The notes below the pieces were generated by a model, which did no database searches, was not told the origin of the DNA, and was given only the letters and a program-made list of their open reading frames with translations. 55,299 bases of DNA, taken from the NCBI GenBank assembly GCA_023129255.1, contig JAGMCH010000046.1, forward strand, positions 1-55,299, written 5' to 3'. Every line of letters starts with the position of its first letter. Position 1 is the first letter of the stretch. The translations under genes were made by a program, and so were the position numbers. This DNA is from Dehalococcoidales bacterium (GTDB lineage Bacteria; Chloroflexota; Dehalococcoidia; Dehalococcoidales; BS750m-G39). Of this stretch, positions 16,923-29,229 are shown one piece after another.

Positions 16923-17046
16923 GGTCCACCTCATATTGCAATCTTTTGAAATTCTTGCCCTCATTCTACCACCCCACCCATCATTATTCTAGAGTATAAA
17001 AGGAGGAGGGGTGGAAAGAGGGTCTTAAAGGGGTGCTAAACCCTAT

Positions 17047-19805: not shown

Positions 19806-19808
19806 ATA

Positions 19809-19827
19809 AATGATAATCTTTTTCATT
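19809..19827 (+). promoter_or_regulatory. Fur-box-like operator
   Basis: AATGATAATCTTTTTCATT, imperfect dyad resembling the classical GATAATGATAATCATTATC box, between -10 and ATG. Confidence 0.55.
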
Positions 19828-19838
19828 TACAGCTTGAA

Positions 19839-20270
19839 ATGAGACTTACCGAGAGAAAAATAGCGGCTGCTTTGAGGCGTCACGGCTACAAGCTCACCCC
19901 CCAGCGAAGGTCGGTGATAAGAGCCATTGCCTCCAGCCAAGACCACCTCACCCCGGCTGCCATCTACCTGAAGGTGCGTCAAGACCACCCCAGTATTGGG
20001 CTGGTGACCATTTACCGCACCCTGGACATACTTGTCAGGTTAGAACTTATCTGTGAGCTACACGCTGGAGGTAGCTGCCACAGCTATACCACCGGTGCCC
20101 CGGAGCACCACCACCACCTGATTTGCTCCAATTGCGGCGAGGTTATTGACTTTAGCGGCTATTACCTCACTGAACTAGAGCAAAGGCTATCCCGGGAAAC
20201 CGGCTTTAAGATTGAAGGGCACCTGCTTGAGTTCATCGGTCGGTGCCAGAACTGCCAGCAAAATGATTAG
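19839..20270 (+). CDS. Fur family transcriptional regulator
   Basis: YKLTPQRRSVIRAI; HHHHLICSNCGEVIDF; FIGRCQNCQ. Confidence 0.93.
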   Translation: MRLTERKIAAALRRHGYKLTPQRRSVIRAIASSQDHLTPAAIYLKVRQDHPSIGLVTIYRTLDILVRLELICELHAGGSCHSYTTGAPEHHHHLICSNCGEVIDFSGYYLTELEQRLSRETGFKIEGHLLEFIGRCQNCQQND

Positions 20271-26265: not shown

Positions 26266-26631
26266 ATGAACCGGAATAAAATATTAAGCCTGGCGTTAAT
26301 AATTGGGTTGCTTATCACTTCTCTAGTATTTATCGGGGGTTGCTTATTCCCAGCAGAGGGAGAAGGAGGAGGGTTCGACTACACGATAATCATCTTCCTG
26401 GTGCTGATTTTTGCCATGTTCTATTTCCTCATGATTCGACCCCAGCGCAAGAGACAGAAGGAACACCAGCACATGGTGGAAGAGCTGAGGAGGGGAGATA
26501 GGGTAGTTACTGCCGGCGGCATCTACGGCGTGATTGAAACCGTCAGCGAGGATAGTGTAGTCATAAAAGTAGAATCGGGAGCGACGATGAGGGTGGCTTT
26601 AGGTAGCGTCGCCCTCAAGCGAGAGAGATAG
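26266..26631 (+). CDS. yajC: Preprotein translocase subunit YajC
   Basis: FYFLMIRPQRKRQKEHQHMVEELRRGDRVVTAGGIYG. Confidence 0.93.
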   Translation: MNRNKILSLALIIGLLITSLVFIGGCLFPAEGEGGGFDYTIIIFLVLIFAMFYFLMIRPQRKRQKEHQHMVEELRRGDRVVTAGGIYGVIETVSEDSVVIKVESGATMRVALGSVALKRER

Positions 26632-26983: not shown

Positions 26984-28216
26984 CTATGTTTCACCGTAGC
27001 CGCCTTTAACTTTGTAGGAACTGTATTCATCATAGTTCTCAACACAGCCAGGGTTACCAACAGGAGAGGGCAAGAATTCCACCACGCTTCTGGTTATCTC
27101 ATGGGCTAAGAACCTTCCTTTTCCGGTCAGGCTTTCATGCTTGATGTACCCCGTAAGTTTTAGGAGCCGAATGAAAATCTTTAGGTAAGATGGTAAATTG
27201 GATGTGTCATCAACTTTAAGGTCATAGATCATCTTTGCAAATTTGCGCCAGTCAACACTTGCTTTGTTCGCAGGGGCAATAAACCCCATCCTTTTGCCAT
27301 CTGCAATATTCATAACATAGACATCCAGTTCAGGATTGATAACTTTCCAACCTCCGTATGTTGAATATGCAGTAGGTCCGAAACCGATATAGTCGATGAT
27401 AAGTTCATCCCCTGATGAATCATAAATGTCATTGCCGACTGCAAATGTCCACACACCTGTCCTACGGTATCCATATCCCTTTAGCATTTCATCTGCTTCT
27501 TCGATAAGCCCAAACCGCTCTTTGGAAGAGCAACTTGGGGAGGGGAAAGCCTGCCTTCTTCTCATTATCAGATACGGGTATGTCGTAATCTGGTCAGGTA
27601 GGATAGTTGATATTCTCTTGATATCATCTCTGACTGTGTTCGCATCTTGATTTGGTAGACCCACCATCATATCAACATTCACCCATAGCCCAAGCGATTT
27701 GGCAAATTCTATTAGTCCCCTTACATGTTCATATGTGGTAATTTTTCTTCCTGTTTTCTTGGTTACCTGATCCGAGAAACTCTCTACCCCGATACTTATC
27801 TTGGTGAAACCGATTGCCTTTAGCTCTTTCAGGTATTCATCAGTCAGCAGTGCTGGCAATAGTTCTATGCCCATACTGTTTATTTGAACCTTCTCTCTAA
27901 GCCGTGCCACTATGTCGTATATGTCTCCTACTGCAAGGGTGTTGGGAGTCCCGCCTCCAATATAGAGCCACTTAGCTTCTCCCTGAATATCCATGTCATC
28001 GATTTCCTTCAAAATAGCTTCTAAGTACTCTCTTTTACGCTTTTCCGAAAAGATCACTTTGTAATAAGGGCAGTAGGAACATTTTGAGAGGCAGAAAGGA
28101 ACATGGATGTAAATGCCGAAACACCCATCAAATACAGGCTTTGGTATTTCCATAAACCGAAAGAGCGTTTTTTTAAAGGCTCTTTGCATCATGGTTTTGC
28201 TTATTGCGATAATCAT
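26984..28216 (-). CDS. Radical SAM protein, HemW/coproporphyrinogen-oxidase-like family
   Basis: IYIHVPFCLSKCSYCPYYK (CxxxCxxC); LYIGGGTPNTL; KISIGVESFSDQV; VNVDMMVGLPNQ. Confidence 0.88.
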   Translation of the reverse strand: MIIAISKTMMQRAFKKTLFRFMEIPKPVFDGCFGIYIHVPFCLSKCSYCPYYKVIFSEKRKREYLEAILKEIDDMDIQGEAKWLYIGGGTPNTLAVGDIYDIVARLREKVQINSMGIELLPALLTDEYLKELKAIGFTKISIGVESFSDQVTKKTGRKITTYEHVRGLIEFAKSLGLWVNVDMMVGLPNQDANTVRDDIKRISTILPDQITTYPYLIMRRRQAFPSPSCSSKERFGLIEEADEMLKGYGYRRTGVWTFAVGNDIYDSSGDELIIDYIGFGPTAYSTYGGWKVINPELDVYVMNIADGKRMGFIAPANKASVDWRKFAKMIYDLKVDDTSNLPSYLKIFIRLLKLTGYIKHESLTGKGRFLAHEITRSVVEFLPSPVGNPGCVENYDEYSSYKVKGGYGET

Positions 28217-28248
28217 AGCTTAGCCTCCCCAATTTGCGTTTTAATGCA

Positions 28249-28266
28249 ATTGCAACTAGTTGCAAT
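28249..28266. promoter_or_regulatory. Putative Fur-family operator upstream of radical SAM gene
   Basis: Perfect 18-bp palindrome ATTGCAACTAGTTGCAAT. Confidence 0.65.
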
Positions 28267-28281
28267 CACGGGTTAAAAAAA

Positions 28282-28704
28282 TTACTGGCTACATTTAACA
28301 CAGCGACCAAAGATAGCCAGATGCCTTAAATCAGCACTGAACCCGTATTCCCGGAGCAAAACATTCTTGAGCGGGACCAGCACTGACTCATCAAGGTCAA
28401 CTATGGCTCCACACTCCTGACAGACCAGGTGATGGTGGTGCCCCTTCCCCGCCGGGTGGTATCTAACCCGACCCTCGCCAAAGTCGGTCTCAGTTACCAG
28501 ACCCAGTTTTTTAAGTAATTCCAGGGTACGATAGACGGTTGAGATATTAACCTGGGGGTATTTAGCTATCACCTGGGCGTAGATTTCCTCAGCGCTGATA
28601 TGACCATCGCTATCCTCAATAGCCGATACAATCATCAGCCGCTGCGGCGTCAGCCGATACCCGTGCTCGGTTAGCTTTTTTACTATATCTCTGGGCTGGT
28701 TCAT
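28282..28704 (-). CDS. Fur family transcriptional regulator (second copy)
   Basis: HGYRLTPQRLMIVSAIE; HHHHLVCQECGAIVDLD; CVKC; start at MNQPRDIVKK. Confidence 0.93.
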   Translation of the reverse strand: MNQPRDIVKKLTEHGYRLTPQRLMIVSAIEDSDGHISAEEIYAQVIAKYPQVNISTVYRTLELLKKLGLVTETDFGEGRVRYHPAGKGHHHHLVCQECGAIVDLDESVLVPLKNVLLREYGFSADLRHLAIFGRCVKCSQ

Positions 28705-28716
28705 TTGACAGTGGGT

Positions 28717-28756
28717 ATTATACCAGAATTTTAGGTATATTGCAAGCTTTTGCAAT
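28717..28756 (-). promoter_or_regulatory. Promoter plus putative autoregulatory operator of second fur gene
   Basis: Minus strand: TTGCAA (28740-28745), 17 bp, TATAAT (28717-28722); operator ATTGCAAGCTTTTGCAAT at 28739-28756 covers the -35. Confidence 0.7.
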
Positions 28757-28779
28757 TACAACTATTTGCGACAACAGCC

Positions 28780-29229
28780 CTAGACCTTACCTTTGCTGTC
28801 CAGCATTATGGTTACCGGACCATCGTTATGGATTTCAACCTGCATATACTGCTGAAAGCGGCCGGTTTCCACCTTTAGTCCGCTGGCTCTAACCTCGTCA
28901 ACAAACTGCTGGAATAGCTCCTCAGCCTCAGCCGGCGGCGCGGCATCGGTAAAACTGGGGCGGCGTCCCTTCCTGGTATCAGCCAGCAGGGTGAACTGGC
29001 TCACCAGCAGCAGCTCACCCCCAATATCCAGCGCCGAGAGGTTAAACCTCTCCTCCTGGTCAGAAAAAATGCGCAGATTGACAATCTTTTGTGCCAGATA
29101 GCGGGCATCTTTCTCGGTATCGCCACTGGCGACGCCGATAAAAGCCACCAACCCCCGGCCTATGCTGCCCACCACCTCTCCAGCCACACTCACCGAGGCG
29201 CCGGTGACCCGCTGCAAGAGCACTTTCAC
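28780..29229 (-). CDS. dtd: D-aminoacyl-tRNA deacylase
   Basis: MKVLLQRVTGASVSVAGEVVGSIGRGLVAFIGV; LLVSQFTLLADTRKGRRPSF; MQVEIHNDGPVTIML. Confidence 0.96.
   Translation of the reverse strand: MKVLLQRVTGASVSVAGEVVGSIGRGLVAFIGVASGDTEKDARYLAQKIVNLRIFSDQEERFNLSALDIGGELLLVSQFTLLADTRKGRRPSFTDAAPPAEAEELFQQFVDEVRASGLKVETGRFQQYMQVEIHNDGPVTIMLDSKGKV

Follow-up and report, generated by a model that had tools for sequence, protein, structure and literature searches.

A Nur-like Fur-family regulator and a HemN-fold radical SAM gene behind matching double operators in a Dehalococcoidales genome

The locus and its double operators

The window considered here, a 55,299-nucleotide stretch that makes up one of the 104 contigs in the 1.31-Mb assembly of a Dehalococcoidales bacterium, contains a Fur-family regulator gene and a HemN-fold radical SAM gene, each preceded by a double operator, together with two syntenic neighbors:

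26266-26631, plus strand: YajC-like gene, the convergent downstream edge of a variable slot (from synteny)
26984-28216, minus strand: HemN-fold radical SAM protein of 410 aa with a CX3CX2C motif (P0002; PF04055 and Foldseek)
28234-28265, minus strand: double operator before the radical SAM gene, TTGCAACTAGTTGCAATTGCATTAAAACGCAA, matching the double-box consensus at 21/24
28282-28704, minus strand: Nur-like Fur-family regulator of 140 aa (P0001; PF01475, PDB relative 3EYY, and recognition helix)
28717-28745, minus strand: regulator promoter, with its -35 element (TTGCAA) inside the operator, a 17-bp spacer, TATAAT, and an extended TG
28740-28771, minus strand: double operator before the regulator, TCGCAAATAGTTGTAATTGCAAAAGCTTGCAA, two abutting boxes matching the double-box consensus at 22/24
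28780-29229, minus strand: DTD-type gene, the upstream syntenic neighbor of the regulator, present close to the fur orthologue at 51 of 61 loci

Pfam and NCBIfam agree with the preliminary description in placing a Fur-family gene beside a HemN-like radical SAM gene. The two 18-bp dyads that it had proposed as operators, with matching arms and N4 spacing, occur exactly at 28249-28266 (ATTGCAACTAGTTGCAAT) and 28739-28756 (ATTGCAAGCTTTTGCAAT); the exact pattern did not arise once when the window was shuffled 100 times with dinucleotides preserved, and the genome scan that had been recommended found no perfect TTGCAA-N4-TTGCAA site in the assembly besides these two dyads. Side-by-side comparison of orthologous loci showed these dyads to be real but incomplete, each being only half of a 32-bp operator composed of two abutting 16-bp TTGCAA-N4-TTGCAA boxes with TGCA centers spaced 10-6-10 bp. 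By comparison, the best unrelated place in the window reaches 16/24 in the double-box score, and the maxima of 12 simulated windows lie at 15-17. R1, a sequence-only operator model built from 51 fur-adjacent sites, matches the regulator operator at 28740-28769 (E 3.7e-6) and the radical SAM operator (E 2.6e-6), both of which belong to its training set, and, even with E relaxed to 10, reports no other place in the genome. A third dyad-like site with one mismatch (16935-16952) sits at the beginning of an ATPase open reading frame and is missed by the double-operator model, and it was therefore taken as a chance occurrence.

Whether the motif is kept at orthologous loci, the point on which the preliminary description had staked its reading, was assessed across 60 loci from relatives, counting double boxes that scored at least 17/24. 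Orthologous fur has such a box upstream in approximately 50 of the 58 loci for which the region was available, and 42 of 61 loci have one in the gap downstream of fur, at a matching position and in the same phase; among 310-bp segments drawn at random from these contigs, 7.5% reach the threshold, a figure that includes draws containing true operators. R1 sites are present in 61 of 101 genomes, and since the model was trained on fur-adjacent sites, the independent evidence consists of the additional sites elsewhere. The 32-bp operator is thus kept before and just after orthologous fur across Dehalococcoidales-like genomes. The minus-strand promoter described earlier (28745 to 28717) was likewise found, and over 44 orthologous upstream sites the coincidence of the -35 element with the operator's last TTGCAA, the 17-bp spacing, and TGnTATAAT are all conserved, an overlap that supports autorepression of the regulator. 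Conservation across dozens of genomes backs the earlier proposals that the regulator controls itself, that the radical SAM gene falls under the same control, and that the motif differs from the classical Fur box. Separately, a T-run directly follows the fur stop codon (window positions 28267-28281), as it does in each of the 40 gaps with an operator that were compared, and could represent either the tail of a terminator or part of a promoter.

The regulator and the genes behind its operator in relatives

The regulator scores 110 bits against PF01475 (curated cut-off 23.1), placing it within the Fur superfamily, and its best solved relative is Streptomyces coelicolor Nur (PDB 3EYY; 119 bits, with the next relative at 94). 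It shares its recognition helix, NISTVYRTLELL, residue for residue with Streptomyces Nur, and the N, S, Y, and R residues of this helix are invariant in 60 orthologues, as are the metal-site residues His35, His83, His90, His92, and His128. The nickel site of Nur, formed by His70, His72, and His126 of the Streptomyces protein, is retained only at the equivalent of His126; the other two positions are occupied by Glu72 and Asp74, with Glu/Asp in nearly all orthologues. The Nur box in Streptomyces has the form tTGCaa-N5-ttGCAA (PMC3919588), and the shared helix fits the finding that TTGCAA half-sites, equal to those of Nur, occur in all operators examined. Unlike Nur, the present system has N4 spacing, two abutting boxes per operator, a strong autoregulatory site, and a radical SAM gene as a target. 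From these sequence features, the protein is predicted to act like Nur at DNA, while falling outside Nur proper in its box spacing and nickel-site residues.

The genes that follow fur in relatives encode CbiM with PDGLE, CbiQ, and an ATPase; NicO; CooT with a small helical protein; and FmdE. Operator sites away from fur precede NikM-like genes and, in three genomes whose orthologue of the regulator shows about 52% identity (G018, G054, and G090), a methyltransferase and a NikA-like SBP, with a further such site in G090 before genes for FmdE and an iron-complex-type SBP. Nickel/cobalt-type families thus form the majority of operator targets in relatives and zinc-family transporters a minority, in contrast to the radical SAM target of the genome studied here. 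The presence of nickel-type transporters among these targets recalls Streptomyces coelicolor Nur, which represses nikABCDE (PMC7055735; PMC3919588).

The zinc-family minority consists of a ZnuA-family SBP, an ABC ATPase, and a permease behind fur in 9 of the 42 operator-bearing loci, and it raises the alternative of a Zur-like zinc sensor whose operator would drive zinc acquisition or zinc-sparing genes. A predicted Desulfovibrio Zur motif, ATGCAACnnnGTTGCAT, also attributed to a Fur-family regulator, offers similar TGCA-centered half-sites, although these are centered 11 bp apart in a single box before zinc transporter genes (PMC545781). Against zinc sensing stand the CbiM, NicO, CooT, and NikA-like families that dominate the operator targets, as well as a score of 46 bits with the Zur model PRK11639 (cut-off 167). 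Zur proteins carry a Cys in the regulatory site, and this residue is replaced in the present orthologues by the invariant His83. Zinc sensing is consequently considered quite unlikely, and the protein, judged by its sequence and regulon, is most likely a repressor of nickel/cobalt uptake rather than a haem or iron sensor.

Several further observations concern the operator loci of relatives. FmdE-domain proteins, often accompanied by iron-complex-type SBPs, lie behind the operator at L180, L176, L183, and L185 (G006, G090, G044, and G064), an arrangement suggesting that FmdE proteins of this group have a nickel/cobalt role. Downstream of fur, at L060, L064, L075, L089, and others, CooT regularly has as its partner a small conserved protein (LRTLLNYWIEHNKEH...), for which a family search returned no match over the cut-off. 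Operator-like sites are also found at or near transport and FmdE genes beside Fur paralogues of approximately 42% identity (L190, L189, and L191, in G010, G045, and G073), so that reading of the operator may not be limited to a single Fur protein. Lastly, a short membrane protein starting MACFLVP or MGCFLVP, which has no Pfam match, follows fur without an operator in G003 (L050) and G014 (L099).

The radical SAM gene in the importer slot

The order FolC-DTD-fur-X-YajC defines a variable slot, X, whose YajC boundary is shared by G001, G002, G004, G006, G007, G009, and others. The slot holds CbiMNQO in G004, G006, G007, and G009, is empty in G002, and is filled by the radical SAM gene in the present genome (G000) and in G001 (Dehalococcoidia bacterium CSMAG_2305). 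CbiM is absent from G000, G001, G002, and G003, the importer search in G000 having been confined to CbiM; even so, a [NiFe]-hydrogenase bearing the nickel-ligand motifs CGVC and DPCHAC is encoded in G000.

A structure model of the radical SAM protein (pLDDT 79, built from six sequences) aligns by Foldseek with HemN (1OLT) at TM 0.69 over 395 columns, the fold agreeing over the whole length. This fold and the CX3CX2C motif are shared with HemN, HemW, ChuW, and HutW, yet the protein falls below the cut-offs of all NCBIfam models shown, scoring 119 bits with HemN (TIGR00538; cut-off 325), 114 with ChuW/HutW (TIGR04107; cut-off 400), and 112 with HemW (TIGR00539; cut-off 205), and a Pfam search reported no HemN C-terminal domain.

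The preliminary description had thought a haem- or metal-responsive regulon plausible, a reading in which an iron- or haem-responsive Fur would govern a haem-degrading enzyme of the ChuW/HutW type. The HemN fold and the sub-threshold ChuW/HutW match lend this idea some support, as do HutW and HmuW themselves, which are reported to be haem-degrading radical SAM methyltransferases (PMC10035031; PMC10404700). The HemN and PRK08629 models, however, score the protein slightly above ChuW/HutW, no haem gene was seen behind any of the relatives' operators examined, and those operators instead precede nickel/cobalt-type transport genes, the protein being linked to nickel/cobalt regulators rather than to haem genes. 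A better iron candidate is the window's other Fur-family gene, which had been described as apparently using a classical Fur box and does have a dyad resembling that box upstream. Haem or iron control of the ChuW/HutW type is set aside as very improbable on the family scores and the genes behind the operator. The upstream element of that second gene (19839-20270) is the dyad TAAATGATAA / TTTTCATTTA, 90% complementary, at window positions 19807-19829; the gene's product lacks the Nur-type helix and is probably the genome's own iron regulator.

The radical SAM gene is compositionally and phylogenetically unusual. Its GC content is 42% (GC3 0.44), compared with 52% for the window and a GC3 of 0.52-0.65 for other genes, and within Chloroflexota it was found only in this genome and G001, with 74% protein identity between them; a survey of 400 evenly drawn Chloroflexota genomes returned G000 alone. 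The gene was probably acquired horizontally. Outside this phylum, an Endomicrobia homologue (47% identity) sits between nikR and DUF4198-CbiM-CbiQ-CbiO genes, and a perfect TAGCAC-N13-GTGCTA dyad that ends a few bases before its start matches NikR sites (GTGTTAC-N13/14-GTAACAC) in size (PMC545781). Its cluster resembles NikR/nikMQO regulons, in which importer operons are placed under a nickel-responsive repressor (PMC545781), although NikR is a ribbon-helix-helix protein unrelated to Fur. In the phylum of the Endomicrobia genome, a search of 341 genomes for further homologues returned the query genome alone; in that of the TA06 genome, a search of 147 genomes gave one additional homologue, without nickel neighbors. 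Of the five non-Dehalococcoidia neighborhoods seen, four have no nickel genes beside the radical SAM gene, so that the nickel link depends on three loci from two phyla.

These data also bear on the possibility that the regulator senses nickel/cobalt while the radical SAM gene has no such role, being an acquired gene behind a leftover operator. The low GC, the rare and sporadic distribution, and the four neighborhoods lacking nickel genes speak for it; the retention of operator and gene together in two genera and the independent placement of the Endomicrobia homologue among nikR and CbiM/Q/O genes, downstream of a NikR-like dyad, speak against it. On balance it is regarded as unlikely.

Proposed regulation and significance

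The overall explanation considered probable pairs a Nur-like regulator that represses nickel/cobalt acquisition with a radical SAM gene of the HemN fold in the importer's place. The regulator would be a metal-activated Fur-family repressor, dimers of which, when Ni(II) (or Co(II)) is sufficient, are expected to occupy the two abutting 16-bp boxes, covering the -35 element at the regulator promoter and, in the gap between fur and the radical SAM gene, the region just upstream of the latter. Metal shortage would then derepress both genes. In most relatives, the second operator would drive CbiMNQO, NicO, or another metal importer; in the present lineage and one sister genus, it would drive the horizontally acquired radical SAM enzyme that replaces the importer, and this enzyme may help to obtain or spare nickel/cobalt, a role in nickel/cobalt economy being the best guess. 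Several points count against this explanation: the radical SAM operator might be a mere leftover of a lost importer; the residues replacing His70 and His72, together with the N4 rather than N5 spacing, are departures from Nur at the sequence level; the ZnuA-family operons could point to zinc; and four of the five neighborhoods seen outside Dehalococcoidia lack nickel genes near the radical SAM gene.

What sets this system apart is the radical SAM target occupying the importer's slot. A more specific suggestion, offered by analogy and thought rather improbable, is that the enzyme frees nickel or cobalt from an organic complex or makes a metallophore, thereby replacing CbiMNQO, under a Nur-like Fur in one phylum and NikR in the other; opening of a corrinoid or nickel tetrapyrrole, comparable to the action of HutW on haem, would be one example of such metal release.

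Searches of the literature collection consulted found no description of a Fur-family nickel/cobalt regulator in Dehalococcoidia, and nothing relevant on Fur or nickel regulation in Dehalococcoides or on radical SAM genes with NikR. Dehalococcoidia possess nickel hydrogenases and many corrinoid (cobalt) dehalogenases. The ungapped, conserved 32-bp double operator provides a direct handle for reading the regulon in many genomes, and the tie between a rare HemN-fold radical SAM family and nickel/cobalt economy makes its chemistry testable. Finally, the presence of a radical SAM gene in the importer's place suggests a previously unrecognized way of coping with nickel/cobalt shortage.
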